Shown: in pieces, positions 28,738 through 59,594 of the stretch
Position numbering within the stretch: position 1 is the stretch's first letter
Layout of the letters: the number at the start of each line of letters is the position of its first letter
NCBI RefSeq assembly: GCF_004152845.1
Contig: NZ_SEON01000003.1
Span: 1 to 64,000 of the forward strand
From: Sphingobium fuliginis
GTDB lineage: Bacteria > Pseudomonadota > Alphaproteobacteria > Sphingomonadales > Sphingomonadaceae
Reading direction: 5' to 3'
DNA length: 64,000 nt
Made by a program: the position numbers and the translations under genes
The notes under the pieces: model-generated
Told to the model about the DNA's origin: nothing
What the model saw: the letters and a program-made list of their open reading frames with translations, nothing else
The model's database searches: none

Positions 28738-28739
28738 GG

Positions 28740-33079: not shown

Positions 33080-33154
33080 TACTTGAAGAGTCGCGCGCTG
33101 TCGGCTAGTCAGTTCCTGCCCCTGGCGAAAGGGCGGGAATGGAGAGCGAGAGAG

Positions 33155-41058: not shown

Positions 41059-41483
41059 TCCTTCATCACCCCCACAGGCGCAAAGCCGGCGATCTTGTGA
41101 TCCCCCGCCTGCACGGGCTGGAACCTCAACCGCATCCCGCAGCGCGGTTCCACGCCTTCAGCGCCAACCAGCAGCCCCGGCACCCGCACGCCCGGCGCAT
41201 CGTCCGGCTCGAACATAACGACGGTGAAGGGCACCTCCGCCTTATGATCCCCGGGCAGCAGGCTGCGGATCACGGTGGTGAAGGTGTAAGCGCTGCCCTC
41301 CGGCGAAACCGGCCGCCATTCCAGCACGGCGTCGGGCTTTCCGGGAATGACCTCGGGCGGATACCATATCCATTCCCCCGTCCCGGCGTCGGCGGTGATG
41401 CGCAGTTCGCCCGCTTCCAGCCCGTCATAATAGCCCTGGAACAGCGGATCTTCGATCTTGGGGGGATAAATAGGAATGCCCAT
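41055..41483 (-). CDS. DUF35 OB-fold protein without zinc-ribbon cysteines
   Basis: A 142-residue partner-type protein for the adjacent Ltp thiolase. The OB fold (AYTFTTVIRSLLPGDHKAEVPFTVVMFEPDD) is recognisable, but where DUF35 proteins have the CxxC pairs it reads GEWIWYPPEV, so no zinc can be bound there. Its paralogue at 28740-29174 keeps all four cysteines. Three bases separate it from the thiolase gene; it overlaps the lactonase gene by four. Confidence 0.78.
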   Translation of the reverse strand: MGIPIYPPKIEDPLFQGYYDGLEAGELRITADAGTGEWIWYPPEVIPGKPDAVLEWRPVSPEGSAYTFTTVIRSLLPGDHKAEVPFTVVMFEPDDAPGVRVPGLLVGAEGVEPRCGMRLRFQPVQAGDHKIAGFAPVGVMKE

Positions 41484-41486
41484 GGA

Positions 41487-42638: not shown

Positions 42639-44710
42639 GCGTCCTTGAACCCCTTGCCCTCAGCCACCAGCCGCTCGATCAACGGGGAGGAGCTGAACGC
42701 CTCGCCATGCGCGGCCTCCAGCGCCTTCAGTTTTTCGAGAACGACCGGCAGACCCTGCAAATCAGCCCAGAACATCGGCCCGCCACGATATTTCGGCCAG
42801 CCATAACCCGTGATCCAGACAATATCGATGTCCGACGCCCGCGATGCGATGCCTTCGTCCAGAATCCGCGCCCCCTCATTCACCATGGCGAACAGGATGC
42901 GGTCGTGGATTTCCTCGTCGCTCACCGCGCGCCGGGCAATGCCCTGTTTTGCGGCGAAGTCCTCGATGACCTGCATGGCGACGGTGGAGGGCGTTTGCCT
43001 GCGGTTCTCGTCATAATCATAATAGCCGCCCTTCGTCTTCTGCCCATGGCGGCCCATCTCGTTGAGGATTTCCCGCACATTGGCGGAACTGGTCGCCTCG
43101 CGGTTCCAGCCGACATCCAGCCCCACCAGATCGCGCATCTGGAAATGCCCCATGGCAAAGCCGAAGTCATACAGCACCTTGTCCACCGCCCAGGGTGTCG
43201 CGCCCTCCAGCACCAGTCGGTCCGCCTGTGCATTCCGCGCCGCAAGGATGCGGTTCCCGACAAAGCCGAAGCCATTGCCCACCAGCACGCCGATCTTGCC
43301 GATGGTCTTGGCGAGCTTCATCGCGGTCACGATGATCTCGGGCCTGGTGTCCTTGGTGCGCACCACCTCCAGCAGCTTCATCACATTGGCGGGCGAGAAG
43401 AAGTGCAGCCCGACCACGCTTTCCGGCCGGGACGTAGCGGCGGCGATGTCGTCAATGTCGAGATAGCTGGTGTTGGTAGCCAGGATCGCGCCGGGCCTGG
43501 CGATCCTGTCGAGCTTGCCGAAAACCTCCCGCTTCACGTCGAGATTTTCGAACACCGCCTCGATGATCAGGTCGCAGTCGGCCAAATCCTCCATCGCCAC
43601 CGATCCGGTCAGCAGGCCCATGCGGGTTTCGACATCCTCGGGCTTCATCCTGCCCTTCTTCGCGGTGGTTTCATAATTGCCGCGAATGATCTTGAGGCCG
43701 CGGTCGAGCGTTTCCTGCTTCGCCTCGACGATGGTCACGGGGATGCCGACATTGGCGAAGTTCATCGCAATGCCGCCGCCCATGGTGCCCGCGCCGATCA
43801 CCCCCACCTTGGCGATGGGCAGGGTCGGCGTGTCGGCGGCAAGCCCCACGATCTTGGCCGCCTGCCGCTCCGCGAAAAAGACATGGCGCTGGGCGGCGGA
43901 CTGGCTGTCGGCCTGAAGCTCATTGAACAGTTCGCGCTCATAGGCCATGCCTTCGTCAAAGGGCTTCTCCAGCGCGGCCTCGATGCAGCGGATGATATGC
44001 TCCGGCGCCTTGAAGCCCCGGAATTTCTTCGCATTGGCCTTGCGGAAGTCCGCGAAGATTTCCGGCTTGCCGCGCGCTTCGTCCAGTTTCTCGCTACGGT
44101 CCCGGACCTTGAGCAGCGGGCGCCCCTCGTCCAGAAGGCGCTGGGCGAAGCCGATGGCGTCAGCGCGCAGATTGCCTTCCGCCGCCAGTTCATCGACCAG
44201 CCCCATCTCCTTCGCGGCCCTCGCGCCGACCGGCGCGCCGGACGTGATGAGGTCGAGCGCCTTTTCCACCCCGACAATGCGCGGCAGACGCTGCGTGCCG
44301 CCAGCACCGGGCAGCAGGCCCAGATTGACCTCCGGCAACCCGCATTTGGCCGAAGGCACGGCGATGCGATAATGCGCCACCAGCGCCAGCTCCAGCCCGC
44401 CGCCCAGCGCCGTGCCATGGATCGCGGCGATCACCGGTTTGGTCGCATTCTCCACGATCAGTTGCAGGTTGCGCAGCGAGGGTTCGACCTGCGGCTTGCC
44501 GAATTCGGTGATGTCCGCCCCGGCGAAGAAGGTGCGCCCCTCGCAGATCAGCACCATGGCGCCCACGCCGTTATCCCCGATGGCTGTCTGCACCGCGCCC
44601 GCGACGCCCTGCCGCACGGCGTTGGAGAGCGCGTTCACCGGCGGCGAATTGACCGTGATGACCGCGATGGGACCGTCCACCTCATAGGTGACGACGTCAT
44701 TGACCTTCAT
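42635..44710 (-). CDS. Bifunctional enoyl-CoA hydratase/3-hydroxyacyl-CoA dehydrogenase (FadB/FadJ type)
   Basis: A 691-residue beta-oxidation enzyme. The N-terminal crotonase domain keeps both hydratase glutamates ([26 protein letters not shown]). The middle Rossmann domain has [17 protein letters not shown], and the dehydrogenase active-site histidine lies in [15 protein letters not shown]. It would hydrate an enoyl-CoA and oxidise it to 3-ketoacyl-CoA. Its stop and start overlap both neighbours in the minus operon. Confidence 0.92.
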
Positions 44711-46784
44711 TCAAGCCTCTATGTGTCTGGGCGCCCGGCTTGCCTGCGGCTTGCGCAGCCAGCACTTCACGAGCGCGTTGGCGGAAATAATGTTGAAGAC
44801 CTTCGATCTCTGCGTCGGTCAGTTCTTCGAAGCGCGGCATGCCCCGCTCGCGCAAAATGCCCTTGTGCAGCACCTGCTCGAAACTGGCCTTGTCGACCGG
44901 CACGCCCGATTGCAGCAGGTCAGGGGCTGCGCCGCCCGACACGGCATTGGCGCCGTGGCAGATGGAACAACGCTGACCGAACACGCCCGCGCCGATGGCG
45001 GCCTTGGCAGGATCGACGGCGAAATCCGGCATGTCGATCACCGGCGTTTCCACGGGCTGGACGGGCGGCAGGCTGGCCTTGCCATCGAGCGAGAAGGTGA
45101 GGACGCGCCATTGCTGCGTGCGATAATTCCATTCCCGCCCCATGCCGGTGGCGCTGGGGAAGCGGGAACCGGCGATCACCGTCACATATTGCCGCCCACG
45201 CGCTCTGTAGGTGATCGGCTGCGCCATCACCGCCGTCTGCGCGTCGAAGGACCAGAGCGGCCTGCCGCTGTTCGCCGCATAGGCCATGAACCTGCCAGCC
45301 GCATTGCCCTGGAACAGCAGATTGCCCGCCGTGGTCGCCGTGCCGCCGCCGCCTCTGATGCCGGGCATGGGCACGCGCCATGCCTCGCTCTGCGTCACCG
45401 GATTCCAGGCCAGCAGGAAGCTGGTCGCGGGCCGGTCCGGCGCCACGCCCGCAGGCGGCGCGCCCGTGCCGACGCTGATGCGCTGGCCGTCCAGATGCTT
45501 CCAGCCCTGCAACGGCTCGGCCGGATCGATATAGACCCGCCCCTGATCCATGGTCGGGATGTAGACCAGCCCCGTCCCCGGATTGAACGACATCGCCTCG
45601 ATATTATGCGCGCCGAAGGGGGAGGGGTAGACGATCGCCGCCTTGCCGCCCGGATAGCGCGCCGCCGGATTCTCGACGGGCCGCCCGCTCTTGACGTCGA
45701 TGCCGCTGGCCCAATTGACCGGCACGATATTGCGGGCGGAGATCAGCTTCCCCGTCTCCCGGTCGATCACATAGAAGAAGCCGTTTTTCGGCGCGTGCAT
45801 TAGCACGTCGCGCTCTTTCCCGCCGATCTTGAGCCGGGCCAGCTCGATGTCCATCGCGCTGTTGAAGTCCCATGTCTCGCCGGGATTGGTCTGATAGTGC
45901 CAGACATATTCGCCGGTATCCGCGTCCAGCGCGACGATGGAGCAGAGGAAGAGATTATCCCCGCCACCCGGCGAGCGGATCTTCTGATTCCACGGAGAAC
46001 CATTGCCGACCCCGATATAGATGCGGTTATATTTGGGGTCGTAGGCCATGGCGTTCCATGCCGTCCCGCCACCGCCATATTTCCACCACTGGCCGGTCCA
46101 CGTCCGGGCAGCCATCGCCATCGCCTTGTTCTCGAACCCCAGCTTGGGATCGCCCGGCACGGTATGGAAGCGCCAGAGCTGCTTCCCCGTCTTCTGGTCA
46201 TAGGCGGTCACATAGCCCCGGATCGGCGCGAAGTCCGCGCCGCCATGGCCGATGATGACCTTCCCCTTGAACACCCAGGGCGCGCCGGTGACGTAGCGCT
46301 CGTCATCCTTGCCGATGGTCTGCGCGGTCCAGACGGGATGGCCGGATCGGGCGTTGATCGCGATCAGCCGCCCGTCGATGGTCCCGGTGAAGACCATGCC
46401 ATTATCATAGGCGATGCCGCGAATGCCCCAGGCGGCGCGCATCTTCTGCCCGGCGACCTTCCAGCTTTGCGGGTCGTAGGTCCACAGTTCCCGCCCGGTC
46501 GAGGCATCCAGCGCATGGATGACGCTATAGCCCGAGGCGTAATAGAGGATGCCGTTCACCGCGATGGGCGCGGAAAGGCTCGACCCGCCGCCGCTGATGT
46601 CATGATACCAGGCGAGCTTCAGCTTGCCGACATTGCCGTCGTTGATCTCGGTAAGCGGACTATAGTGGTTCTCATCGATCCCACCATAGCCCGGCCAATC
46701 GCTCCCATCACGCCTCGCCTCACCCGAAGGCGCGCAGGCGGCGAGCAACAGCAGCAGGGGCAGAACACAACGCATGAAACTCAC
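44697..46784 (-). CDS. Second PQQ-dependent dehydrogenase with C-terminal heme c domain
   Basis: A 695-residue quinohemoprotein with a lipoprotein-type signal (LLLLAAC, lipidation near C17), PQQ propeller (TGRELWTYDPQ, TGKQLWRFHT, TGEYVWHYQ) and CSICH heme site (C606, C609, H610). The catalytic aspartate is in ETWDFNS with Asn at the lanthanide-diagnostic position. Like the 30111-32162 enzyme it lacks the vicinal Cys-Cys near RAAWGIRG. Membrane tethering would place it near the respiratory chain. The start overlaps the acyl-CoA synthetase stop (ATGA at 46781); its 3' end overlaps the FadB-type gene by 14 bases. Confidence 0.87.
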   Translation of the reverse strand: MSFMRCVLPLLLLLAACAPSGEARRDGSDWPGYGGIDENHYSPLTEINDGNVGKLKLAWYHDISGGGSSLSAPIAVNGILYYASGYSVIHALDASTGRELWTYDPQSWKVAGQKMRAAWGIRGIAYDNGMVFTGTIDGRLIAINARSGHPVWTAQTIGKDDERYVTGAPWVFKGKVIIGHGGADFAPIRGYVTAYDQKTGKQLWRFHTVPGDPKLGFENKAMAMAARTWTGQWWKYGGGGTAWNAMAYDPKYNRIYIGVGNGSPWNQKIRSPGGGDNLFLCSIVALDADTGEYVWHYQTNPGETWDFNSAMDIELARLKIGGKERDVLMHAPKNGFFYVIDRETGKLISARNIVPVNWASGIDVKSGRPVENPAARYPGGKAAIVYPSPFGAHNIEAMSFNPGTGLVYIPTMDQGRVYIDPAEPLQGWKHLDGQRISVGTGAPPAGVAPDRPATSFLLAWNPVTQSEAWRVPMPGIRGGGGTATTAGNLLFQGNAAGRFMAYAANSGRPLWSFDAQTAVMAQPITYRARGRQYVTVIAGSRFPSATGMGREWNYRTQQWRVLTFSLDGKASLPPVQPVETPVIDMPDFAVDPAKAAIGAGVFGQRCSICHGANAVSGGAAPDLLQSGVPVDKASFEQVLHKGILRERGMPRFEELTDAEIEGLQHYFRQRAREVLAAQAAGKPGAQTHRGLNEGQ

Positions 46785-48316
46785 CCTCCGATGGTGCGAT
46801 CAGAAGGCCAGAAGCGCTGGCGCAGCGCCTTCTTGTTGACCTTGCCCATGATGGTGCGGCCGATGTCGTCGACCATCTCATAGCCGCGCGGGCATTTATA
46901 CCCGGCCAGATTCGCCCGGCAGAAGGCGTTGAGTTCCTCAGCCGTAGGCGGATCGCCCGCGTCCTTGGGAATGACCAGCGCCCGCGCTTCCTCGCCCATT
47001 TCGGCATTGGGCGCGGCCACCACGGCGACGTCCGCGACCTTGGGATGGCGCAGCAGCACATGCTCGGATTCAGCGGGGTAAATATTCACCCCACCGCTCA
47101 CGATCATGTCGGACACCCGGTCGGTGATGAAGAGATAGCCCTCCTCATCGACATAGCCCATCTCACCCAGCGTGAAGACGCCCGGCGCGATATGCGCAGC
47201 GGCGGTCTTCTCCGGATCGCCGCGATAGACGATGCCGTAACCGCTCGTGTCGCGGAAATAGACCTGACCGACCTCATTGGGACCGAGTATCCGCCCATCC
47301 TCGCCATAAATAACCGTCTCGAACGGCGCGAGCGCCCTGCCGACGGAGCCCGGCCGCTCCAGCCATTCCTGCGAGGTGATGAAGGTGGTCGACCCTGCCT
47401 CGGTCCCGCCATAGGCCTCCACCAGCACCGGCCCGAACCAGTCGATCATCGCCTGCTTCACCGCACGTGGACAGGCCGCCCCGGTATGGGCAAGCCGCTG
47501 GATGCTCGACACGTCATATTTCGCCCGCACCTCTTCCGGCAATGCCAGCATCCGCTGGAAATGGGTCGGCACCATCACGGAGCCTTTGACCTTATATTTC
47601 TCGATCAGCGCCAGCGTCCTTTCCGCATCGAAATGCTCGACGGTGATAAGGCTCATCCCGCCGAAGACATTGCGCGCCATGCCCAGCGGCCCGGTATGAT
47701 AAAGCGGCCCCACGGCAATGCCCGGCGAGGGCGTGATCTTCGGCCGGATCGCTTCGGCCAGGGCCTTCACGGTCGCGACGCGAGGGAAATATTGCGGCGG
47801 CGTCTCGGTCGCCTTGGGCCGTCCGGTCGTGCCGGAAGTATAGTGGAGATGCGGCAGCGGCGGCACATCATGGTCCGGCTCTTGCGCCGAAGCCGCCGCC
47901 AGCCACTCCTCCCAATGGATGACGCCTTCCCGATCCGGGCAGCGCCAGCCGATCACGGTCCCGACGCCCGCTTCCCCCGCGGCGGCAAGTCCCGCCTCCA
48001 TCGTCTCCGGCCCGACGAGCAGCGCCACCGCGCCGCTGTCCTTCAAAATATAGGCCGCCTCCGAAGGCGTCAGGTGAAAGCTCACCGGCACGCTCGAAAT
48101 GCCCGCTTCCAGGCAGGCGACATAGGCGATCACCGTCTCCGCGCTATTGGGCGCGAACACCGCCACGCGCCGTTCGGTGAGGTCCAGCCCGTTCAGCGCA
48201 TTGGCCGCCCGGTTGAGCCGTTCGTCCAACTGGTGCCAGTCATAGGTCACCCGCTCGTCGGCAAGAGCAAGCTGGTCGCGGCGCGCGGGATCGACCCCGC
48301 CGATGGTCAAAGACAT
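46781..48316 (-). CDS. AMP-forming acyl-CoA synthetase
   Basis: A 511-residue ANL-superfamily enzyme that activates a carboxylic acid to its CoA thioester through an acyl-adenylate. The P-loop TSGTTGRPK, the A5 motif YGGTEAG, the hinge LGEMGYVDEEGYLFITDR and the catalytic lysine region GRTIMGKVNKKALR are all intact. Embedded in the minus operon, it is the probable CoA-activation step for the substrate carried by the neighbouring MFS protein. Confidence 0.92.
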   Translation of the reverse strand: MSLTIGGVDPARRDQLALADERVTYDWHQLDERLNRAANALNGLDLTERRVAVFAPNSAETVIAYVACLEAGISSVPVSFHLTPSEAAYILKDSGAVALLVGPETMEAGLAAAGEAGVGTVIGWRCPDREGVIHWEEWLAAASAQEPDHDVPPLPHLHYTSGTTGRPKATETPPQYFPRVATVKALAEAIRPKITPSPGIAVGPLYHTGPLGMARNVFGGMSLITVEHFDAERTLALIEKYKVKGSVMVPTHFQRMLALPEEVRAKYDVSSIQRLAHTGAACPRAVKQAMIDWFGPVLVEAYGGTEAGSTTFITSQEWLERPGSVGRALAPFETVIYGEDGRILGPNEVGQVYFRDTSGYGIVYRGDPEKTAAAHIAPGVFTLGEMGYVDEEGYLFITDRVSDMIVSGGVNIYPAESEHVLLRHPKVADVAVVAAPNAEMGEEARALVIPKDAGDPPTAEELNAFCRANLAGYKCPRGYEMVDDIGRTIMGKVNKKALRQRFWPSDRTIGG

Positions 48317-49653
48317 CAGACGTCCTTTCGGGAAGCAATGGCCGGCGCGAGGTATCTCAGCGCCATGCGGAAGGAGATGAGGGCAAGGATGGAACTGACC
48401 GTGACCACGACCGCCAGCGACCGGCCCAGCGCGCCCTCGTCATGGAACACATATTGGGTCAGCGCTGCGACGATGGCGGGCCCCGCGCCTTGGCCCAATA
48501 TGGTGAAGACGAACAGGAAGGACGCCAGCATCCGCGACCGGATCGTCGCTGGCGCGATCAGCCCCATGACCGAGGAAACATAGACCATGAAAGGCACGGT
48601 GATGAACTGCGCCACGCAATAGCAGGCGAGGAAGACATAGGGGTTCGTCGCGAAGAACATGTAGGCGATCACCGGCAGGAAACCCAGGATCAGCCAGCCG
48701 TAGAAGCGCAGATGCGCGTCCTTCATGCCCCGCGCGAACAGCTTGTCCACGATCCACCCGTTCACCACCAGCGACACGGCGGACACGATGTTCATCAGGC
48801 TCAGCGCAAAGCCATATTGCACCGGCTTCCACCCGAAATGCCGCTCGATATAGGCGGGAACCCAGTTGGTCATGGAATAGCCGCACATGGCGAGGGCGGA
48901 CGTGCCCACCAGCATCAGCGCCAGCAGCTTCCAGTTCTGCGTGACGAAGGCTTTGATCAGTCCCTTCTGCTCCCCGTTCGCGGCGGTACCGGGCGTACGG
49001 CGGCGGCCCGGATCGGGGAAGGTGAACAGCAGCAGGGCGAGCAATATGCCCGGCACGCCGACCATCATCATGACCAACTGCCAGGGCTGGGCAGGGCCAT
49101 GGAAGGGAATATGGATGCCGCTATGCGCCGTCGCAAAGGCGATGGCGACGCCGCCCAGCGCAAAGGCCGTGGCCGATCCCACCTTGCCCGCCGTCTGGAA
49201 GGTCGACGTCGCCCGCGTCAGCAGGTGCGAAGGAAAGGCGTCGGCAATCAGCGAATAGGCGGCGGGCAGCAATGCCGCCTCCCCGATCCCGACGAAGATG
49301 CGCCCGATCAGCAGCGCCTCATAGCTTTGCGCAAAGCCGCAGGCCGTGGTCGCGACCCCCCATATCACCACGCCGCCGAAGATGATCCAGCGCCGGGAAA
49401 ACCGATCCGAAGCCCAACCCAAGGGTAGGCCGAAAATCGCATAGAAGATCGCGAAGGAGGTCGAGGTGATCATGCTGATCTGCACATCGGACAGCAGCAG
49501 ATGCGCCTTGATCGGCGTCACCAGCATCGACACGATCAGCCGGTCGACCCAGCTCAGCACATAGAGCCCGAACAGAACCGCCACCATCCACCAGGCGCTG
49601 CCAAGGCCCGGATTGGTCCGGCTGTCATTCTGGTTCCGGGCGCTCATCAGCAT
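48316..49653 (-). CDS. Major facilitator superfamily transporter
   Basis: A 445-residue inner-membrane carrier with twelve predicted helices, the loop 2-3 motif GWASDRFSRR, and the spinster-like opening WVDRLIVSMLVTPIKAHLLLSDVQISM. It probably imports an organic acid that feeds the operon. I start at the ATG at 49653 after AAGGCGAGG; an in-frame TTG at 49674 and an ATG at 49647 also exist. It overlaps the synthetase start by one base. Confidence 0.85.
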   Translation of the reverse strand: MLMSARNQNDSRTNPGLGSAWWMVAVLFGLYVLSWVDRLIVSMLVTPIKAHLLLSDVQISMITSTSFAIFYAIFGLPLGWASDRFSRRWIIFGGVVIWGVATTACGFAQSYEALLIGRIFVGIGEAALLPAAYSLIADAFPSHLLTRATSTFQTAGKVGSATAFALGGVAIAFATAHSGIHIPFHGPAQPWQLVMMMVGVPGILLALLLFTFPDPGRRRTPGTAANGEQKGLIKAFVTQNWKLLALMLVGTSALAMCGYSMTNWVPAYIERHFGWKPVQYGFALSLMNIVSAVSLVVNGWIVDKLFARGMKDAHLRFYGWLILGFLPVIAYMFFATNPYVFLACYCVAQFITVPFMVYVSSVMGLIAPATIRSRMLASFLFVFTILGQGAGPAIVAALTQYVFHDEGALGRSLAVVVTVSSILALISFRMALRYLAPAIASRKDV

Positions 49654-49679
49654 GATCCTCGCCTTTCCGCTCAAAATCT

Positions 49680-50906
49680 TCAGCGCACCGGCAGTTCGTT
49701 CAGTTCAGCGATCTTGAGCTTGCCAAGCTGCGCCATATGCACCTCGTCCGGACCGTCCGCGAAGCGCAGGTAGCGTGCATTCATGAAGGCGGCGGCGGGC
49801 GGGAAATCGCTCGACATGCCGATGCCGCCGAACACCTGCATCGCGCGATCCGCCACCGTCTGGGTCATGCGCGGCGCGACGATCTTGATGGCGGCGATCA
49901 GGTCCTTGGCGACCTTGTTGCCATAGCGGTCCATCGCATCGGCGGCCTTCAGCGTCAGCAACCGCGCCTGCTCGATCTCGCAGAAGGAGAGGGCGATGTC
50001 CTGCCGGATGCTGCCCTGATCGGCCAGCTTCCGCCCGAAGGCGACGCGGTTCTCCACCCGTCGCGCCATATATTCCAGCGCCCGCTGCGCCTGCCCGATC
50101 AGGCGCATGCAGTGATGGATGCGCCCCGGCCCCAGGCGACCCTGCGCGATCTCGAACCCGCGCCCTTCGCCCAGGATCAGATTGGCCTTGGGCACGCGCA
50201 CATCCTTGAAGACCATCTCCGCATGGCCGCCGGGCGAATGAACCGCATTCATGACGTCGAGCGGACGGACGATCTCGATGCCGGGCGTGCCGGCGGGAAT
50301 CAGAATCTGCGAATGCTGCCTGTGGCGCGGCCCGTCATTGGGCGTCTTGCCCAGCAGGATGAATATCTTCGTATGGGGATCGAGCGCCCCCGAAATCCAC
50401 CATTTGCGGCCATTGATGACATAATCGTCGCCGTCCGCGATGACGGTGGTGGCGACATTGGTGGCGTCCGAAGAAGCCACCTCCGGCTCCGTCATCACAT
50501 AGGAGGAGCGGATCGTGCCATCCAGCAGCGGCTTCAGCCACTTCTCCTGCTGCTCCGGCGTGCCATAGCGCGCCAACACCTCCATATTGCCCGTGTCCGG
50601 CGCGGAGCAGTTGAAATATTCCGAAGACCCGATCACCCGGCCCATGATCTCGGCCAGCGGCGCATATTCCAGATTGGTGAGGCCGGGACTCCATTCGCCA
50701 TATTCATGCGGCAGGAACAGGTTCCACAGGCCCGCTTCCTTCGCCTTCGCCTTGATCTCCTCCGTCCCCGGCCAGCGCTTCCACAGGTTCGCGGGGTCAT
50801 GGTGGAAATGGTCGCGCTCCTTCTCGATCGGATAGACATGGGCGTCCATGAAATCGATGAGCCGCTCCCGCAGCGCCTTCACCTTGTCGGAATATTCGAA
50901 ATCCAT
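49680..50906 (-). CDS. Acyl-CoA dehydrogenase, ACAD10/11 type
   Basis: A 408-residue flavoenzyme with the FAD/substrate loop [16 protein letters not shown] and the C-terminal [10 protein letters not shown], a phrase characteristic of the ACAD10/11 group. In that group, and in LvaC of levulinate catabolism, the protein does not desaturate a plain acyl-CoA but eliminates phosphate from a 4-phosphoacyl-CoA to give an enoyl-CoA. An APH-type kinase, the partner of that reaction, is two genes upstream. The functional extension to this protein is inference. Confidence 0.87.
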
Positions 50907-50929: not shown

Positions 50930-51691
50930 TCAGCTAAGGGTGAGGCCGCCGTCCACGACCAGCGTCTGCCCGCAAATGTAACCGGCAAGGGGGGAGGCGA
51001 GGAAAAGCGCCACTCCCGCCATTTCCTCCACCGATCCAAAGCGGCCCATGGGTATCCGGGCCAGGGCGCGCTCCCGCCGCTCGTCATTGTCCATCGTCAC
51101 CTTGGTCATCTTGGTGTCGACCAGGCTGGGCGCGATGCCGTTGACGCGGATGCCGTCGCCCGCCCAGGCAATCGCCAGCGCCCGCGCCAGATTGACCGCG
51201 CCCGCCTTCGACGCCGCATAGGCCGGATTGCCGAACGTCGCCTTGAACGCGCCGATGGAGCTGACGACGATGATCGTCCCTTTGGCGGCGGCCAGCGCCT
51301 CCCGGCAGAGGTTGGAAATATGCAGGATGGAGTCGAGATTGACCGCCATCACCTTGTTCCAGCCCTCGGCCTGGAATTCCTGCCGCCGGTAGAGGACCGT
51401 GCCCTGCGAATGGATCAGCACGTCCAGCCTGTCGAAAGGCACCGGCGTCGCCGCAATCGCCGCCGCATCGCTGACGTCGACCTGCGTATAGCCGACGCCT
51501 TCAAGGTCCGACCCTTCCTCGCCCGCATAGTCCGCCGCGCTCGCCCGCGTGCCCCAGACATGGACCTGCGCGCCCCGCTGGCGGAAGGCCTGCGCCATGC
51601 CGTTGCCGATGCCGCTCGATCCGCCGACCACCAGCACCGTCTTCCCGGTGAAGTCGAGTTCGTTGGTCAAAGGAAATTCCCTCTCATGCAT
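50930..51691 (-). CDS. Short-chain dehydrogenase/reductase
   Basis: A 253-residue classical SDR: nucleotide motif [13 protein letters not shown], active-site serine in VVSSIGA, catalytic YAASK, and C-terminal GQTLVVDGG. It probably oxidises or reduces a hydroxyl/keto intermediate. Situated between the APH-type kinase and the acyl-CoA dehydrogenase, the same company that LvaD keeps. The ATG at 51691 directly follows the upstream stop; a TTG at 51670 after GAGAGGGAA is an alternative start. Confidence 0.87.
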
Positions 51692-51692
51692 G

Positions 51693-52739
51693 TCAGCGGA
51701 TCAGCGCCTCAGCGCGTTCGAACAGATGGATGGCGCGGCTATGCAGCCTGTCGCCGGTCTCGCGCGGCGCCTTCCCGGCGCAGGCGCGGGCATGGGTGCC
51801 CTCCAGCAATATGCCGAGCTTGTAGCAGGCCAGCACATGATACCAGTCGACCGCAGACAGATCGCGCGCCGACCCTTCGGCATAGCGCGTCACCAGTTCC
51901 CCGGCGCTCGGAAAACCGTCCCACGGCCTGACCGATACGGTGCTTTCCGACTTCCCGTCCGGCCAAGTGGCCAGCACCCAACCCAGGTCCAGCAGCGGAT
52001 CGCCAATGGTCGCCAGTTCCCAGTCGATGATCGCCGCCAGTTCCGGCCCATCCTTGCGATACATCACATTGGCCAGATGATAGTCGCCATGCATGATGCC
52101 GGGCGTGAACCGGTCCGGCCTATGCCGCTCCAGCCAGTCCCCGACCGCGCCGACCGAAGGCAGCGCTTGCGGCCCCGTCCACCCGTCAAACTCGCCATAG
52201 CCCGCAAGTTGCGACCGCCAGCGATCCACCTGCCGCCCGAGGAAATTCTCCGGCTTTCCGAAATCGCTCAATCCCAGCGCCTGATGATCCTGCGCGCCCA
52301 GCGCCGCGATGCCGTCCACCAGCGCCAGCCCCATGGCATGGCGCATCGCGGGCGAACCGGCATGCGGTTCCGGCAATTGCCCGACCGGATTGAAACCGTC
52401 CACCGGCTCCATCAGGTAAAAGGCGACGCCCATCACGCTCTCATCGCCGCAATCCGCGATCAGCCCCGGATGCGGCACGTTCGTCCCGGCCAAAGCGCGC
52501 AGCAGCCGCGCCTCCCGCCGCATCGTCTCATTGCTGTTCGGGCGGGGATGCGCAGGGGGGCGGCGGAACACATAGTCGCGCCCGTCGCGGCTGAAGCGCA
52601 GCAGGATATTCTGCGTCCCTCCCGCGAGCGGCGTCACGTCCGTCAGCGGGCCGGAGCCAAGTCCCCGGTCCGTCATCCACGCCGTCAGCGACTCGATGTC
52701 GACCGTAGGTCCCGATGCTGATTCCACGGACGATTTCAC
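51693..52739 (-). CDS. APH-fold phosphotransferase (LvaA / ACAD10-11 kinase-domain type)
   Basis: A 348-residue aminoglycoside-phosphotransferase-fold kinase with Brenner motif HGDYHLANVMY and metal motif IIDWELATIGDPLLDLGW. The RPNSNETMRREARLL N-lobe matches the group that phosphorylates 4-hydroxyacyl-CoAs and not antibiotics: LvaA in Pseudomonas and the kinase domain of mammalian ACAD10/11. First gene of the ten-gene minus operon, divergent from tetR-fbiC. Antibiotic resistance is unlikely given the neighbours. Confidence 0.85.
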   Translation of the reverse strand: MKSSVESASGPTVDIESLTAWMTDRGLGSGPLTDVTPLAGGTQNILLRFSRDGRDYVFRRPPAHPRPNSNETMRREARLLRALAGTNVPHPGLIADCGDESVMGVAFYLMEPVDGFNPVGQLPEPHAGSPAMRHAMGLALVDGIAALGAQDHQALGLSDFGKPENFLGRQVDRWRSQLAGYGEFDGWTGPQALPSVGAVGDWLERHRPDRFTPGIMHGDYHLANVMYRKDGPELAAIIDWELATIGDPLLDLGWVLATWPDGKSESTVSVRPWDGFPSAGELVTRYAEGSARDLSAVDWYHVLACYKLGILLEGTHARACAGKAPRETGDRLHSRAIHLFERAEALIR

Positions 52740-52767
52740 TAGGGCATCCCTCGCTTTTCTCGACTGT

Positions 52768-52796
52768 TCGACCGTCGATTAGATCAATTGGATAAT
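52768..52796 (+). promoter_or_regulatory. Probable promoter/operator of the tetR-fbiC unit
   Basis: GATAAT (52791-52796) is a good -10 box. A weak -35 (TTCGAC) lies about 18 bases upstream, overlapping the small perfect palindrome TCGAC-C-GTCGA (52768-52778), a candidate site for the second TetR. The 98-base gap between the divergent genes must hold both promoters. Confidence 0.4.
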
Positions 52797-52836
52797 GCAC
52801 TTGACGAACGCTCTTGGCAATGAGAAAAATGCACAC

Positions 52837-53556
52837 ATGGTCAGACTTCAACTCGCCAGGGCCGATGATGCCGCTCGCAGCGCCGCTGCCGGGCAGATCA
52901 AGAAAGTCGCGTTGCGCCTGTTCGCGGAACGGGGCGTCGACGGCGTCACCGTGCGGGAGATCGCAGCGGCGGCGGGGCAGAAGAATCACGGCGCGGTCGG
53001 CTATTATTTCGGGTCGAAGGAAGCCTTGGTCCGCGCCATCGTCATGGACGGCGCGGTGGCGCTGGATCGCGAACGCAATGCCGCGCTGGACTTGCTGGAG
53101 GAGCAGGGCGGCCCCCGCACCATCCGGCAGGTGGTGAACATCCTGATAGAGCCGGTGCTGGGCCTGTCGGACGATCATTATGTCCAGTTCATCGTGATCT
53201 TCGCCATGACGCACAGGGACATGATGCTGGACGCGATCGATCCGGCGTGGAACCGCGCCTATGGCCGCTGTCTCGACCATCTGCGCCGACTGATGCCCCA
53301 TCTGCCGCCCGCGCTTCAGAACCAGCGCTTCGTCTTCATGGGCGCCTATATCAGCGCCGTGCTTTCCGCGCGGCAGCGCGCCCTGGCCGACCGCAGCCGC
53401 GCGCATCCCATGTGGGGCAGCGAATCCAGCCTCGAACATTTCATGCAGTCGCTGGTCGCCCTGCTGGACGCGCCGGCCGACCTTCCGAAGGACATGCTGG
53501 CACGGATCGGTGGAGCAGGGGCCGCGATCCCGGAGCCGCCGGGGCCGGTCGGCTGA
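52837..53556 (+). CDS. TetR-family transcriptional regulator (second)
   Basis: A 239-residue regulator with the helix-turn-helix VTVREIAAAAGQKNHGAVGYYFGSKEALV (about residues 35-65) and an all-helical ligand domain. The ATG at 52837 is preferred because the ATG at 52795 overlaps the -10 box. It heads tetR-fbiC-npdG-thiolase and is divergent from the ten-gene catabolic operon, so it is placed to control both from one intergenic region. Confidence 0.85.
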   Translation: MVRLQLARADDAARSAAAGQIKKVALRLFAERGVDGVTVREIAAAAGQKNHGAVGYYFGSKEALVRAIVMDGAVALDRERNAALDLLEEQGGPRTIRQVVNILIEPVLGLSDDHYVQFIVIFAMTHRDMMLDAIDPAWNRAYGRCLDHLRRLMPHLPPALQNQRFVFMGAYISAVLSARQRALADRSRAHPMWGSESSLEHFMQSLVALLDAPADLPKDMLARIGGAGAAIPEPPGPVG

Positions 53557-53574
53557 GAAGGGCGCAAGGACAAG

Positions 53575-55983
53575 ATGATGGAGAGGATGATGACAGGCAG
53601 GGACGGGATGAGCGGACAGGCGGCGGCATTGCTGGACATGCCCTTGGCCGACCTGCTCGCCGCCGCCTCCGCGCTGCGCGATGAGGGCCATGGCCGGGTG
53701 CAGAGCTGGTCGCGCAAGGTTTTCATTCCGCTGACCCAGCTTTGCCGCAATCTTTGCCATTATTGCACCTTCTCCCAGCCGCCCCGGCCCGGCGAGAACG
53801 TCTATATGACCCGCGAGCAAGTGCTGGCCGTCGCCCGCGCGGGCAGGGCGGCGGGCTGCACCGAGGCGCTGTTCACGCTGGGCGACAAGCCGGAGTTGCG
53901 CTTCGCCGCGGCGGGGGAGGAACTGGTGCGGCTGGGGCATGCGAGCACCATTTCCTATCTCATCGAAATGGCCGCGCTGGTGCGGGATGAAACCGGCCTG
54001 CTCCCGCATATCAATGCCGGGGTGATGACCCGCGAGGAAATGGCTGCGCTCCGCCGCGTATCCGTGTCGCAAGGCCTGATGCTGGAGTCCGTTTCCGACC
54101 GCCTCTGCCGGAAAGGCGGCGCGCATTATCGCTCGCCCGACAAGGAACCGGCGGCGCGGCTGGAGACGATCCGCTTGGCGGGCGAACTGCACATTCCCTT
54201 CACCACCGGCATATTGATCGGCATCGGTGAAACCCGCGCGGAGCGGATCGAAGCGCTGGAAGCGATCCGCGACCTGCACCAGCGCTACGGCCATATCCAG
54301 GAAGTCATCGTCCAGAATTTCCGCGCCAAGGAACGCACGGTGATGGCCCATGCGCCCGAACCGGACATGGACGAACTGCTCTGGACCATCGCCGCCGCCC
54401 GCCTGATCCTGGGGCCGCAGATGAACATCCAGGCGCCGCCGAACCTGTCGGCCGCCGATTTCCCGCGCCTGCTGTCGGCGGGGATCAACGATTGGGGCGG
54501 GGTCTCGCCGGTCACGCCCGACCATGTGAACCCCGAAGCGCCCTGGCCGGAAGTCGAACGCCTACGCATGGCGACCGAAGGGGAGGGGCGGATGCTCGTC
54601 GCCCGCCTGCCGGTCTATCCCGCCTATGCGCAGGACAATGCGCGCTGGCAGGACAAGGCGATGGTGCGCCACATCCTCGCCCATGCCGATGCGGAGGGCT
54701 TCGCTCGCGAGGACAGATGGTCCCCCGGCATAGCGCTGGAGCCCCGCATCACGCGTCCCTCGACCCTGCCGGTCGATCCCAGGATCGCCGCCATCGTCGA
54801 CCGCGCCATGGCGGGCGCCCTGCTGGATGAAGAGGAGATCGCGACCCTCTTCTCCGCCCGCGAAACCGACCTTGAACATATTTGCGACAGCGCCGATGCC
54901 TTGCGCGAACAGGTGATGGGCGACGCCATCACCTATGTCGTGAACCGCAACATCAACTATACCAATATCTGCCTTTATAAATGCAGCTTCTGCGCCTTCT
55001 CCAAGGGCGACAAGGCGGAGCAACTGCGCGGCAAGCCCTATGATCTCGATCTTGAGGAAGTCCTCCGCCGCACCCGGGAGGCATGGGATCGCGGCGGCAC
55101 GGAAGTCTGCCTGCAAGGCGGCATCCACCCCCATTATACCGGCGAGACCTATCTGGGCCTCGCCAAAGCCGTCCGCGCCGCCGTGCCGGAGATGCACATC
55201 CACGCCTTCTCGCCGCTGGAGGTATCGCAAGGCGCGGCGACATTGGGCCTGACGGTCGAACAATTCCTCACCCGCTTGAAGGAGGCGGGTCTCGACACGC
55301 TCCCCGGCACGGCGGCGGAGATATTGGACGATGAGGTCCGCGCCATCATCTGCCCCGACAAGCTCGACACCGATCAATGGCTGGACGTCATCGAAACCGC
55401 GCACAAAGTCGGTTTTCGCACCACCGCCACCATCATGTTCGGCCATGTCGACACGCCCCGCCACTGGGCGCGCCATCTGATCCGCATCCGCGACCTGCAA
55501 CGCCGCACCGGCGGCTTCACCGAATTCGTGCCGCTGCCCTTCGTCCATATGGAAGCGCCCATGGGCCTGCGTGGCGAGGCGCGCCACGGCCCGACCTTCC
55601 GCGAAGTCCGGCTGATGCACGCCGTCGCCCGCCTCGCGCTGCACCCGCATATCCGCTCGATCCAGACAAGCTGGGTCAAGCTGGGCGAGGAGGGGGTGAA
55701 GGCCTGTCTCACTTCCGGCGCGAATGACCTTGGCGGCACGCTGATGAACGAGAGCATCTCCCGCGCAGCAGGAACGCAGCATGGCCAGGAAATGCCCCCC
55801 GCCGCAATGGAGGCGCTGATCCGCTCGCTCGGCCGCACCCCGCGCCAGCGCAGCACCGCCTATGGCGCGGTCGCGCAGCCTATTCACGACCGCGGCATGG
55901 ATGCCGCGGAACTCACGCCCATGATCCTCACGCCTCCGCGCAGGCGTCAAAAAGAACAGGAGAGTTTAGCCTATGCAGAATGA
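53575..55983 (+). CDS. fbiC: FO synthase, fused CofG/CofH (7,8-didemethyl-8-hydroxy-5-deazariboflavin synthase)
   Basis: An 802-residue protein with two radical-SAM domains that together build the deazaflavin chromophore FO of cofactor F420 from tyrosine and a ribityl-uracil. The N-terminal CofG domain has CRNLCHYC (C57, C61, C64); the C-terminal CofH domain has CLYKCSFC (C466, C470, C473). The fused form is the one known from mycobacteria. It lies 18 bases after tetR and overlaps the F420:NADP reductase gene by 11. None of the genes that turn FO into F420 (cofC/fbiD, cofD/fbiA, cofE/fbiB) is in the window, so they must be elsewhere or FO itself is the product. Confidence 0.93.
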   Translation: MMERMMTGRDGMSGQAAALLDMPLADLLAAASALRDEGHGRVQSWSRKVFIPLTQLCRNLCHYCTFSQPPRPGENVYMTREQVLAVARAGRAAGCTEALFTLGDKPELRFAAAGEELVRLGHASTISYLIEMAALVRDETGLLPHINAGVMTREEMAALRRVSVSQGLMLESVSDRLCRKGGAHYRSPDKEPAARLETIRLAGELHIPFTTGILIGIGETRAERIEALEAIRDLHQRYGHIQEVIVQNFRAKERTVMAHAPEPDMDELLWTIAAARLILGPQMNIQAPPNLSAADFPRLLSAGINDWGGVSPVTPDHVNPEAPWPEVERLRMATEGEGRMLVARLPVYPAYAQDNARWQDKAMVRHILAHADAEGFAREDRWSPGIALEPRITRPSTLPVDPRIAAIVDRAMAGALLDEEEIATLFSARETDLEHICDSADALREQVMGDAITYVVNRNINYTNICLYKCSFCAFSKGDKAEQLRGKPYDLDLEEVLRRTREAWDRGGTEVCLQGGIHPHYTGETYLGLAKAVRAAVPEMHIHAFSPLEVSQGAATLGLTVEQFLTRLKEAGLDTLPGTAAEILDDEVRAIICPDKLDTDQWLDVIETAHKVGFRTTATIMFGHVDTPRHWARHLIRIRDLQRRTGGFTEFVPLPFVHMEAPMGLRGEARHGPTFREVRLMHAVARLALHPHIRSIQTSWVKLGEEGVKACLTSGANDLGGTLMNESISRAAGTQHGQEMPPAAMEALIRSLGRTPRQRSTAYGAVAQPIHDRGMDAAELTPMILTPPRRRQKEQESLAYAE

Positions 55984-56638
55984 AGCTCTGGCGAGCATCG
56001 CCGTCCTCGGCGGCACCGGCAAGGAAGGCGGCGGCCTCGCCCTCCGCTGGGCGCATAAGGGCCATAAAGTGATCATCGGCAGCCGCACCGCCGAACGCGC
56101 GCAGGAAGCCGCCGCCCAGATGAACGAAGTTCTGGGCGAGGGCGCCATCACCGGCGCCGCCAACCCGGACGCCGCCGCGCAGGCCGACATCGTCGTCCTC
56201 GCGGTTCCCTATGCTGCGCAGCAATCGACGGTGAAGGACGTCGAACCGGCGCTGGCGGGCAAGATATTGATCGACGTGACCGTACCTCTGGTCCCGCCCA
56301 AAGTCAGCCGCGTGCAACTGCCCGAAGGCGGCTCCGCCGTCGAAGCCGTGCAGAAAATGCTGGGCGAGGGGGTCCGCGTCGTCTCCGCCTTCCAGAATAT
56401 CAGCGCCCATCACCTGACCAGGCTGGACGAGGAAATCGAATGCGACGTCCTGGTCTGCGCCGACGACAGCGAAGCCGCCGACACGGTGGTCGCGCTGGCG
56501 CAGGAAATCGGCCTGCGCGCCTGGAATGCAGGCCCGCTGTGCAATTCGGTCGTGGCGGAGGGGCTGACCTCCGTCCTGATCGCCCTCAACCGCAAATATA
56601 AAGTCCCCGGCTCCGGCATCCGCATCACCGGCGTCTAA
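55973..56638 (+). CDS. npdG: NADPH-dependent F420 reductase
   Basis: A 221-residue Rossmann protein with the dinucleotide motif VLGGTGKEGGGLALRWA and NADP-selecting GSRTAERAQ. It exchanges hydride between NADP(H) and F420. The tail LTSVLIALNRKYKVPGSGIRITGV is typical of this family. The gene overlaps fbiC, so cofactor assembly and its reduction are translated together. This supports a working deazaflavin pool serving the catabolic genes around it. Confidence 0.9.
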   Translation: MQNEALASIAVLGGTGKEGGGLALRWAHKGHKVIIGSRTAERAQEAAAQMNEVLGEGAITGAANPDAAAQADIVVLAVPYAAQQSTVKDVEPALAGKILIDVTVPLVPPKVSRVQLPEGGSAVEAVQKMLGEGVRVVSAFQNISAHHLTRLDEEIECDVLVCADDSEAADTVVALAQEIGLRAWNAGPLCNSVVAEGLTSVLIALNRKYKVPGSGIRITGV

Positions 56639-56652
56639 ACAGGAGAAGATTG

Positions 56653-57825
56653 ATGGCAGAAGCCTATATCGCCGCCGTCGCCCGCAGCGCCGGCGGCAAG
56701 CGGGGCGGCCGCCTCGCCGCCGTCCACCCCGCCGATCTCGCGGGCAAAGTCCTTGCAGGCCTTGTCGAACGATCCGGCATCGATCCCTCCGCCGTAGAAG
56801 ATGTCATCATGGGCTGCGCCTGCCCCGGCGGCGAGCAGGGCGCGAATATAGCCCGCAACGCTGTCCTTGCGTCAGGCCTGCCCGAATCCGTCCCCGGCAC
56901 CCATGTCGACCGCCAATGCGGTTCCTCGCAACAGGCGCTGCACTTCGCCGCCGCGACGGTGATGTCCGGCGTGCAGGATGTGGTGATCGCCGCCGGCGTC
57001 GAAAGCATGACCCGCGTGCCCATGGGCCTGCCCTGGACGCTGCCCGCCAAGCACGGCTTCGGCTCCTATCGCAGCCCCGGCATCGAGGCGCGCTACCCGA
57101 ACCAGCCCTTCAGCCAGTTCGGCGGCGCGGAGATGCTGGCGAAGAAATATGGCCTGACCCGCGATGTGCTGGACGCCTATTCGCTCGAAAGCCATCGCCG
57201 CGCCGCCGCCGCGACGCAGGCGGGCAAGTTCGATGCAGAGATCATTCCCCTCGAAGTCGTCACCCCGGAAGGCGAAACGGTCGTCCACAAGGTCGACGAA
57301 GGCATACGCTTCGACGCCAGCCTGGACAGGATCGCCAGCGTCAAGCTGCTGGCCGAAGGCGGCGTAATCTCCGCCGCCAGCGCCAGCCAGATCTGCGACG
57401 GCGCCGCCGCGCTGCTCGTGGTCAACGAAGCGGGCCTGAAGGCGCACGGCCTGACCCCGCTGGCCCGCGTGCACCAGATGACGGTGCTCGGCCACGATCC
57501 CGTCATCATGCTGGAAGCGCCTATTCCCGCGACCGAAAAGGCGCTTGCCCGGGCGGGGATGAAGCTTTCCGACATCGATCTTTATGAGGTCAACGAAGCC
57601 TTCGCCCCGGTGCCGCTCGCCTGGACGCAAGTGCTGGACGCCAATCCCGCCCGGCTCAATGTCCATGGCGGCGCGATCGCGCTTGGCCATCCGCTGGGCG
57701 GATCGGGCGCCAAGCTGATGGCGACGCTGGTCAGCGCTCTCCACGACCGGCGCGCCCGCTATGGGCTGCAAACCATGTGCGAAGCAGGCGGCATGGCCAA
57801 TGTGACCATAGTGGAAAGGCTCTGA
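56653..57825 (+). CDS. Acetyl-CoA acetyltransferase-type thiolase
   Basis: A 390-residue thiolase with a complete active site: nucleophile C89 (VDRQCGSSQQ), NEAFA, GHP histidine (IALGHPLGGSG) and second cysteine (MCEAGGMAN). In contrast to the two Ltp-type proteins of this locus it should carry out true thiolytic cleavage of 3-ketoacyl-CoA. The start at 56653 follows AGGAGAAG; a TTG three bases upstream is ignored. Fourth gene of the tetR-fbiC unit. Confidence 0.9.
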   Translation: MAEAYIAAVARSAGGKRGGRLAAVHPADLAGKVLAGLVERSGIDPSAVEDVIMGCACPGGEQGANIARNAVLASGLPESVPGTHVDRQCGSSQQALHFAAATVMSGVQDVVIAAGVESMTRVPMGLPWTLPAKHGFGSYRSPGIEARYPNQPFSQFGGAEMLAKKYGLTRDVLDAYSLESHRRAAAATQAGKFDAEIIPLEVVTPEGETVVHKVDEGIRFDASLDRIASVKLLAEGGVISAASASQICDGAAALLVVNEAGLKAHGLTPLARVHQMTVLGHDPVIMLEAPIPATEKALARAGMKLSDIDLYEVNEAFAPVPLAWTQVLDANPARLNVHGGAIALGHPLGGSGAKLMATLVSALHDRRARYGLQTMCEAGGMANVTIVERL

Positions 57826-58196: not shown

Positions 58197-58328
58197 GTCA
58201 GGTCTAGGACTTCTGCGGGGTTCGCGCAACCTGTATGGCGTAAAGCCGCGAATGCTTATCCCTCCGTTTCCTTGATGTTCTCTCTCGTTCCCGCTAATGT
58301 GCTTACTGAGAGAAGGGCTAGTAAGCAC

Positions 58329-59594
58329 ATGGCGACAGGCACGATCAACAAGGCCACTGTGGATGCCACGCATCCCGGCGCAACCGACAAGATGCTATGG
58401 GACGACAAGATCAAGGGCTACGGGCTGAAGGTCACGCCAGCCGGTGCCAAGATTTACCTGTTCCAGTATCGGATCGGGGGCAGGGGGGCGAAGACGCGCC
58501 GCTACACCATCGGTAAGCACGGCGCGCTCACCCCGGAAAAAGCGCGGCGAGAGGCCGACAGGCTCCATATCCTGATCCGGCAGGGAATCGATCCGCAGGC
58601 GGAGAAGCAGGACCGCCAGCGCAAGGCCGTCGATCTCGCCTTCTCCGATTATGCCGACAGGTTTGTTGAGGAGTGCTTGAAGGTCCGCTGGAAGCGGTCC
58701 CACAAAGACGGCGAGAGCCTGCTGCGCCTTTATGCAAAGCCGGTCCTCGGGTCAAAGCCGCTGCCGGACATCACCCGCGCCGATATTCGCGCAGTCCTTG
58801 CGCCTGCCCGAAGGAAGCTGGCGACGTGCCGCAACCTGTTCGCCGTTCTGCGGCGCCTTTTCCGCTGGGCGGTCAGCGAAGGCGATCTTCATTCATCTCC
58901 GCTCGATGGGGTTGAGGCTCCAGCCCTTCCGCAAAAGCGCGACCGCTTTCTGTCGGATGACGAATTGCGGCTTGTCTGGCTTGGGACCGAGAAGATGGAA
59001 TTTCCCTTCGCTTCTTTGTTCCGGTTGCTGATAATTACCGGGCAACGGGTCGAAGAGGTCGCCGGGCTGGAATGGTCGGAACTGGATCGATCGGCGGCTA
59101 TGTGGTCGCTGCCCGCCGAACGGGCCAAAAATGGCGAGGCGTCACAGGTGCCTTTGTCCGACCTCGCAATGGTAGAACTGGATTCGCTGTCGAAAGGCAA
59201 GAAGGGCAAGTGGCCACGGTCAGGGCTGGTTTTCACCACCACCGGGGAAACTCCTGTCAGCGGGTTCTCTCGCGCCAAGAGGCGCGTGGATAGGGAAGCC
59301 GGGGCGCTAGGCGCGAAGGAAGAGGAGCCTATCAAGATCGCGCCATGGCGGCTTCATGATCTGCGCCGGACATTGGCGACAGGGATGCAGCGGCTTGGGG
59401 TCCGGTTCGAAGTGACCGAAGCAATCCTGAACCATGTCAGCGGCGCGAAGTCCGGCGTTGCCGGCGTGTACCAGCGTCATGATTGGGGTCCGGAAAAGCG
59501 ATCCGCGCTCGATGCGTGGGCGGCGCATATTGCCAAGCTCCTGACCCCCACTGATAAGACCAATGTTGTTCCGCTCGCGGCTGCGCGGGCGTGA
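58329..59594 (+). CDS. Tyrosine site-specific recombinase (integrase) of the DUF4102/P4 type
   Basis: A 421-residue integrase with an N-terminal DUF4102 arm-binding domain (DKIKGYGLKVTPAGAKIYLFQYRIGGR), a SAM-like core-binding domain, and a catalytic domain with ITGQRVEEVAGLEW (first Arg), WRLHDLRRT (His-x-x-Arg) and the tyrosine in GVYQRHDW. The ATG at 58329 gives the usual start; upstream in-frame codons from 58272 lack homology. It lies next to the split tRNA-Lys, which is its presumed attachment site. Confidence 0.92.
   Translation: MATGTINKATVDATHPGATDKMLWDDKIKGYGLKVTPAGAKIYLFQYRIGGRGAKTRRYTIGKHGALTPEKARREADRLHILIRQGIDPQAEKQDRQRKAVDLAFSDYADRFVEECLKVRWKRSHKDGESLLRLYAKPVLGSKPLPDITRADIRAVLAPARRKLATCRNLFAVLRRLFRWAVSEGDLHSSPLDGVEAPALPQKRDRFLSDDELRLVWLGTEKMEFPFASLFRLLIITGQRVEEVAGLEWSELDRSAAMWSLPAERAKNGEASQVPLSDLAMVELDSLSKGKKGKWPRSGLVFTTTGETPVSGFSRAKRRVDREAGALGAKEEEPIKIAPWRLHDLRRTLATGMQRLGVRFEVTEAILNHVSGAKSGVAGVYQRHDWGPEKRSALDAWAAHIAKLLTPTDKTNVVPLAAARA

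Follow-up and report, generated by a model that had tools for sequence, protein, structure and literature searches.

The gene npdG, encoding an NADPH:F420 oxidoreductase, sits in the picrate gene cluster. Picrate degradation is an aerobic pathway that receives hydride from F420H2, the reduced deazaflavin cofactor F420, via an enzyme of the luciferase-like monooxygenase (LLM) fold, and in Rhodococcus F420 is reduced by Fno with NADPH (accessible part of a 2021 review, PMC8498797). The same part of this review reports trace amounts of F420 with unknown role in the Alphaproteobacteria Oligotropha and Paracoccus, counts the reason for F420 in Proteobacteria among the open questions, and says that up to its date no F420-dependent enzyme of bacteria other than Actinobacteria had been tested (PMC8498797). 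In SAR202 (Chloroflexi), expansions of flavin mononucleotide (FMN)/F420-type monooxygenases together with CaiB/BaiF transferases were proposed to serve the breakdown of recalcitrant compounds (available text of PMC5395668). Mammalian enzyme pairs and the pair of the lva operon phosphorylate 4-hydroxyacyl-coenzyme A (CoA), which is then converted to enoyl-CoA (available text of PMC12440821). Here we describe the first 64,000 nucleotides ("the window") of contig C15 (NZ_SEON01000003.1) of Sphingobium fuliginis, whose genome comprises 4.6 Mb in 21 contigs and is 99.99% complete. In this window fbiC and npdG, genes for deazaflavin synthesis and reduction, are divergent from a catabolic operon. We consider it probable that fbiC-npdG is the cofactor-supply unit of a CoA-linked catabolic locus, in which F420H2 would drive at least one step, most probably via the protein LLM37, 4-hydroxyacyl-CoA would enter beta-oxidation, and one divergent promoter region would serve both arms.

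The fbiC gene (53575-55983, plus strand) encodes a fused FO synthase of 802 amino acids with CofG and CofH domains. In a profile search it reached 1146 bits with NF006687, the model for bifunctional CofGH (cut-off 1018), and also exceeded the cut-offs of TIGR03550 and TIGR03551. Both radical-SAM domains carry the CX3CX2C motif (residues 57 and 466), identifying the protein as FbiC, and a whole-genome search returned this gene as the sole above-cut-off CofG match. The npdG gene (55973-56638, plus strand; TIGR01915, 227.7 against a cut-off of 149.8) belongs to the NpdG/Fno family and overlaps fbiC by 11 bp, as the first-pass annotation of this DNA had stated. That annotation was also right in placing the pair downstream of a TetR-family regulator gene (52837-53556, plus strand; PF00440 and PF17939), 18 bp before fbiC, and in counting a thiolase gene as the next member of the unit: the open reading frame (ORF) for this acetyl-CoA C-acyltransferase (56650-57825, plus strand; NF005077, 693 against 590) starts 11 bp after npdG. 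A tyrosine integrase gene with Arm-DNA-binding and catalytic domains (58272-59594) starts about 450 bp past the thiolase. At locus L008 (G and L numbers are handles for the genomes and loci compared) a catabolic arm with an acyl-CoA dehydrogenase (ACAD), an enoyl-CoA hydratase, a short-chain dehydrogenase and CaiB follows the thiolase; here this arm is found on contig C17 instead (L187, 7534-12123), 90-92% identical to that of L008.

On the other side of the intergenic region, ten minus-strand genes are packed tightly between 52739 and 39886, their spacings ranging from -14 to +23 bp, which bears out the ten-gene divergent operon annotated earlier. The gap between the two arms, originally given as 98 bases, measures 97 bp (52740-52836), because the conserved start of the TetR gene is ATG 52837 and the divergent GTG lies at 52739. 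The longest ORF of the TetR gene would begin at 52795; the ATG at 52837 is conserved in L008, L009 and L133. A nine-way alignment of the gap revealed one block in which columns are invariant (GAT.AT.C.CTTGAC, then C.ATG), and this block coincides with overlapping promoter-like sites, one rightward (52801-52830) and one leftward (52820-52792). Scanning 5.8 kb for promoters yielded four sites against 0.5 expected, three of them in the gap. The conserved block with its overlapping divergent sites marks the gap as a putative bidirectional promoter. The block is retained at L010, L013, L118 and L119, where no homologue of the TetR gene of the window matched. A TGCAA-N-TTGCA-like repeat is present in L008 and L133 and imperfect in the window, and operator palindromes are conserved only in part. 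Judged from these sequence features, the notion that fbiC-npdG and the catabolic operon are on the same switch is supported, and the two arms are predicted to be co-expressed.

The association recurs in other genomes. Among the fbiC loci of named genomes (the best 80 of 588 confirmed), five adjoin the same operon genes: L008 (Sphingobium scionense), L009 (Novosphingobium), L010 (a Sphingobium metagenome-assembled genome, MAG), L011 (Sandaracinobacteroides) and L013 (a Sphingomonas MAG). In a survey of 397 genomes of the same family, which named relatives indicate to be Sphingomonadaceae, fbiC was present in 57 genomes and in 27 of 96 genera; the earlier statement that F420 is rare in Proteobacteria thus needs softening. 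Orthologues of the operon's ACAD, ACAD49 (49680-50906, minus strand), with at least 77% identity were detected in 11 of the 397 genomes, and all 11 contain fbiC, compared to 57 of 397 overall; further genomes with weaker ACAD49 relatives (64-73%) carry fbiC in one of 21 cases. Within the 11 genomes, fbiC adjoins the operon's kinase gene on one contig in four (G000, G212, G133, G201), and in three (G320, G362, G084) it adjoins the gene for the two-domain CaiB-type CoA transferase CaiB34 (34783-37179, plus strand; CaiB models matched below cut-off), with the ACAD within about 21 kb. In G308 and G206 fbiC and the operon pieces are split over small contigs, and in G156 no fbiC-operon link was found. 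On the evidence of this recurrence and co-occurrence, the link between fbiC and the catabolic locus is not local chance.

The CaiB34-linked loci represent a second placement of fbiC, which is divergent from CaiB34-LLM37 in G320, G362 and G084 and adjoins CaiB34 only in G206. An fbiC tree of 120 rows was calculated (input of 137 sequences from 144 loci, 18 of which, including L011, were removed as duplicates), and in this tree fbiC beside CaiB34 and fbiC beside the kinase belong to different lineages. A single clade of both groups was rejected in an approximately unbiased (AU) test with 48 hand-picked rows of the 120 (p-AU 8e-76). Operon-linked fbiC genes do not form one clean clade in the 120-row tree: five changes are required and near relatives without the operon are interspersed (the operon-linked group includes G308, in which fbiC and the pieces of the operon are on different small contigs). 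Since two fbiC lineages are found at the same pathway, hitch-hiking is hard to credit.

The first-pass annotation had noted that the window contains no homologue of cofC, cofD or cofE, and had proposed a whole-genome search for these genes. This search located all three on contig C1, outside the window (L006, 8005-10279), with the CofD and CofE genes side by side and CofC adjoining. All exceed their NCBIfam cut-offs (CofC 130.7 against 105, CofD 311.9 against 257.45, CofE 259.5 against 180.65), completing the gene set of the pathway; CofE, with 252 amino acids, is too short for the C-terminal domain of FbiB. Of the two options that had been left, cof genes elsewhere or free FO as the cofactor, the first therefore holds and the second is not needed. 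Because cofE, cofD and cofC are present on another contig, the genome can, as predicted from its gene set, make full F420 and not only FO.

At L008 and L013, cofE, cofD and cofC lie within the fbiC unit after npdG, as do cofE and cofD at L009; in L008 and L009 the cof genes precede the thiolase, and CofC of L008 and L013 scores above cut-off. FbiC is about 89% identical to its L008 counterpart, CofE and CofD from C1 about 50% to the L008 copies. The C1 set is closer to that of G273 (CofD 85%, CofE 73%, CofC 63%), which accompanies another fbiC lineage, and no fbiC was found within 20 kb around the C1 genes. The cofE-cofD-cofC set on C1 is apparently xenologous. The F420 pathway looks chimeric, because the fbiC locus lacks cofEDC, the cofEDC locus lacks fbiC and the sole fbiC sits at the catabolic promoter; the fbiC locus seems to have lost its cofEDC genes.

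The chemistry of the operon can be approached from its head. ACAD49 is of the ACAD10/11 type: ACAD11 structures in the PDB (2wbi, 8v3u) matched with E values near 1e-117 to 1e-119, the row that follows them has 1e-41, and the top structural match, ahead of ACAD11, was a putative ACAD (1.4e-121). The kinase APH51 (51693-52739, minus strand; PF01636) resembles the ACAD11 kinase domain (PDB 8v3v, E 8.7e-25), which ranks below two entries, one titled 'putative acyl-CoA dehydrogenase' and the other 'aminoglycoside phosphotransferase'. Dehydrogenase and kinase thus both show the similarity expected of an ACAD10/11 - LvaA/LvaC module, with the best match of each being unnamed or 'putative'. The operon head is predicted to be a split 4-hydroxyacyl-CoA kinase/dehydrogenase pair of the ACAD11 type. 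Because ACAD11/lva-type pairs act on 4-hydroxyacyl-CoA, the pathway, which probably breaks down a carbon compound, is likely to pass through a 4-hydroxy- or 4-oxo-acyl-CoA.

LLM37 (37205-38212, plus strand), a luciferase-like oxidoreductase, is the likeliest F420 user of the locus, with F420H2 as its presumed cofactor. Its AlphaFold2 model (mean predicted local distance difference test, pLDDT, 91.8) has the TIM-barrel fold of LLM proteins. With an E-value limit of 1e-40, members of the LLM37 family were detected in 22 of the 397 same-family genomes, and 21 of these have fbiC (the exception, G346, is 98% complete). Outside the family, 309 genomes of the class, judged from named relatives to be Alphaproteobacteria, were drawn; LLM37 was found in 11, and all 11 contain fbiC, compared to 9 of 69 LLM37-negative genomes (p 1.6e-8) and to 5 of 26 when these were restricted to at least 3.5 Mb (p 5e-6). 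Both p-values ignore kinship, and the 69-genome background, taken from 297 LLM37-negative genomes mostly as every fourth, is not lineage-random. Overall, 32 of 33 distinct genomes with the LLM37 family have fbiC. An FMN-type LLM of this genome served as control and was accompanied by fbiC in 29 of 66 genomes, against 21 of 22 for LLM37 (p 9e-6, ignoring kinship). Since this control lies above the base of 57 in 397, lifestyle accounts for part of the co-occurrence.

The genome holds nine LLM genes besides LLM37, and none of these nine passes an F420 model: L090, L091, L092, L093 and L095 pass the NtaA/DmoA FMN model, L096 passes the MsnO8 model, and L088, L089 and L097 are nearest to alkanesulfonate monooxygenase, below cut-off. 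The arginine of the GxG motif of luciferase-type FMN enzymes, which we take to bind the FMN phosphate, is absent in all 29 aligned rows of the LLM37 family. It is present in Vibrio luciferase, RslO1 and the Enhygromyxa luciferase, and is absent in PuwE and 8k74 too. Matches in the structure search included a Thermomicrobium enzyme structure of 2025. Among the loci L008-L087 and L113-L146, nearly all of them fbiC loci, 68 of 114 contain at least one LLM-family ORF, often directly adjoining fbiC. One such gene, in L011 (16644-17618), scores 207.6 against TIGR03619 (cut-off 166.9) and lies 3.6 kb after npdG; it is preceded by genes for an aldehyde dehydrogenase and a PQQ-like protein, and homologues of all three (65-82%) occur in G201.

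Several observations weigh against a supply unit that serves this pathway through LLM37. LLM37 remains below the cut-offs of the F420 subfamilies (best: TIGR03619, 81.0 of 166.9) and is nearer to FMN than to F420 structures, with FMN-type enzymes ranking first in both structure and profile searches. In G011 the operon's TetR-thiolase unit is present without fbiC, which lies on another contig. In G331, a genome of this genus, the match with the window extends to 18289 and resumes first as a 122-bp scrap of a second TetR gene (32383-32504) and then from 53645 to 56709; it continues as L007 from 13999, the region being L113 10217-19316. Here about 60 kb are shrunk to little beyond fbiC, npdG (92 and 96% identical) and the very start of the thiolase gene. 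These scraps suggest that the catabolic cluster was once present and was then deleted while fbiC-npdG was spared. Since G331 kept fbiC-npdG without the operon, F420 probably has other uses too. Of the "dedicated F420 step" that the first-pass annotation proposed beside the operon, the tie is upheld by the recurrence, by fbiC in 11 of 11 ACAD49 genomes against 57 of 397, and by the conserved promoter block; G331 and G011 speak against an exclusive dedication.

The rankings of LLM37 favour FMN enzymes and would be explained if it were an ordinary FMNH2-dependent, Baeyer-Villiger-like monooxygenase fed by the flavin reductase-like protein encoded within the cluster (33980-34630, plus strand; PF01613). 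F420 would then serve another enzyme of the pathway, as the F420-type LLM of L011 may do there. If the product were a lactone that is opened to a hydroxy acid, the presence of an SMP-30 lactonase-like gene and of the ACAD11-like pair would make sense, and the L011 enzyme, which does exceed the TIGR03619 cut-off, has its homologue in G201, where LLM37 was not found. This explanation is a serious but unlikely one: outside the family, too, all 11 genomes with LLM37 relatives have fbiC, homologues of either query flavin reductase were found in none of the fetched flanks of seven LLM37-relative loci, the flavin reductase occurs in G201 without LLM37, and an F420 model is passed by none of the other LLMs of the genome.

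Alternatively, F420 could have a general role, for example in detoxifying reductions, with fbiC-npdG merely neighbouring the operon and co-inherited with large catabolic islands. The retention of fbiC-npdG in G331 after the deletion of the cluster, the 46 of 57 fbiC genomes that lack an ACAD49 match of at least 77%, and the enrichment of the control LLM with fbiC would all agree with this. We nevertheless regard it as distinctly improbable, given two different fbiC lineages beside the same pathway, not one of the 11 operon-ACAD genomes lacking fbiC, the conserved promoter block, and the position of the genome's sole fbiC in the operon although cofEDC are elsewhere. FO antennae are known in photolyases. 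A role of free FO as the relevant product, whether as such an antenna or as the cofactor itself, would suit a window without cofC, cofD and cofE, but is very improbable, and free FO was rejected as end product, because all three genes are present above cut-off and adjacent on C1 and because cof genes belong to the fbiC unit at L008, L009 and L013.

In the explanation we favour, cofactor supply by fbiC-npdG, FbiC would make FO, which CofC, CofD and CofE from the other contig would convert to F420, and NpdG would reduce F420 using NADPH. F420H2 would then power at least one pathway step, most probably through LLM37, which would act in hydride transfer as a reductase or dehydrogenase and not as an oxygenase; the direction of this step we infer. 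The ACAD11/LvaA-LvaC-like pair (APH51 and ACAD49) would channel 4-hydroxyacyl-CoA into beta-oxidation. Both arms would be driven from the overlapping divergent promoters, probably under TetR control. A further-reaching proposal, for which we see about equal grounds for belief and doubt, is that LLM37 founds a new F420H2-dependent clade within the luciferase/Baeyer-Villiger branch usually read as FMN-dependent, and that it is through this enzyme that aerobic Alphaproteobacteria put F420 to use in degrading a particular class of compounds by a CoA-linked route, F420 synthesis being retained and co-regulated for this purpose.

In the minus-strand operon, between kinase and ACAD49, lies a short-chain dehydrogenase gene (50930-51691; best model 193 bits, below the cut-offs), and downstream of ACAD49 follow genes for a major facilitator superfamily (MFS) transporter (48316-49674; MFS models, below cut-off), an acyl-CoA synthetase (46781-48316; PRK12406, 378 bits, below the cut-off of 701) and a pyrroloquinoline quinone (PQQ)-dependent alcohol dehydrogenase with a cytochrome c domain (44697-46784; TIGR03075, 491.3 against 480.05; PedF-like C-terminus). 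The operon continues with a FadB/FadJ-type bifunctional enoyl-CoA hydratase/3-hydroxyacyl-CoA dehydrogenase (42635-44710; FadJ model, 481.6 bits, below cut-off), an SCP2-type thiolase/aldolase (41487-42638; PRK06158, 251.9 bits, below cut-off) and its ChsH2/DUF35 OB-fold partner (41055-41483; PF01796, 27.8 bits, cut-off 27.1), and ends with the SMP-30/gluconolactonase-like protein (39886-41058; PF08450, 98.8 bits).

To the left of the operon the genes are on the plus strand. Besides LLM37, CaiB34 and the flavin reductase-like gene, they encode a zinc/quinone-type oxidoreductase (38857-39837; TIGR02824, 229.7 bits, below cut-off), a SnoaL-like protein (38215-38853; PF13577), an enoyl-CoA hydratase family protein (33071-33964; PF00378), the second TetR-family regulator (32327-33058; PF00440) and a second PQQ-dependent dehydrogenase (30081-32162; PF01011). 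At 27553-29768 there is another pair of SCP2-thiolase and ChsH2-type genes, roughly 11 kb away from the pair at 41055-42638; the presence of two such pairs suggests that the chain is cleaved in two steps. The stretch from the left flank to the catabolic locus (18156-27570) is occupied by genes of glycogen metabolism, namely for a phosphorylase, a branching enzyme, a nucleotidyltransferase and an alpha-amylase-family protein.

Among the literature matches listed, with subscription papers outside the scope, no title or opening of an abstract pointed to a description of a link between F420 and a sphingomonad catabolic operon, and the accessible part of a steroid-degradation review checked for F420 gave no lead. 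The locus supplies a pathway, a promoter and a candidate enzyme with which the role of F420 in Proteobacteria could be tested directly, and culturable relatives for such tests are at hand in Sphingobium scionense, Novosphingobium sp. SG707 and Sandaracinobacteroides sayramensis, the source of L011. The stretch fetched from Sphingobium scionense DSM 19371 does not include LLM37. If it is true that LLM37 uses F420, proteins now taken for FMN monooxygenases need rereading. The pairing of F420 genes with a catabolic pathway in related bacteria hints at a role of F420 there.

Compared to the described systems, the locus is most similar to the picrate npd genes of Rhodococcus and Nocardioides in that aerobic catabolism is proposed to draw on F420H2 via an LLM-fold enzyme. 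The npd genes belong to Actinobacteria and act on a nitroaromatic substrate, whereas here the host is an alphaproteobacterium, the pathway is CoA-linked and the chromophore synthase lies within the unit. With the lva operon (LvaA, LvaC) and mammalian ACAD10/ACAD11 it shares the pair of kinase and ACAD, a likeness seen in the comparison with ACAD11 structures; the present locus is longer and includes PQQ dehydrogenases, SCP2 thiolase/ChsH2, a CaiB transferase, an LLM and F420 genes. SAR202 resembles it in the combination of LLM-fold enzymes with CaiB transferases, but the available part of its description contains no link between fbiC and an operon, and here a single LLM stands beside a two-domain CaiB. 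In contrast to the F420 producers Oligotropha and Paracoccus, a concrete pathway can be proposed here.

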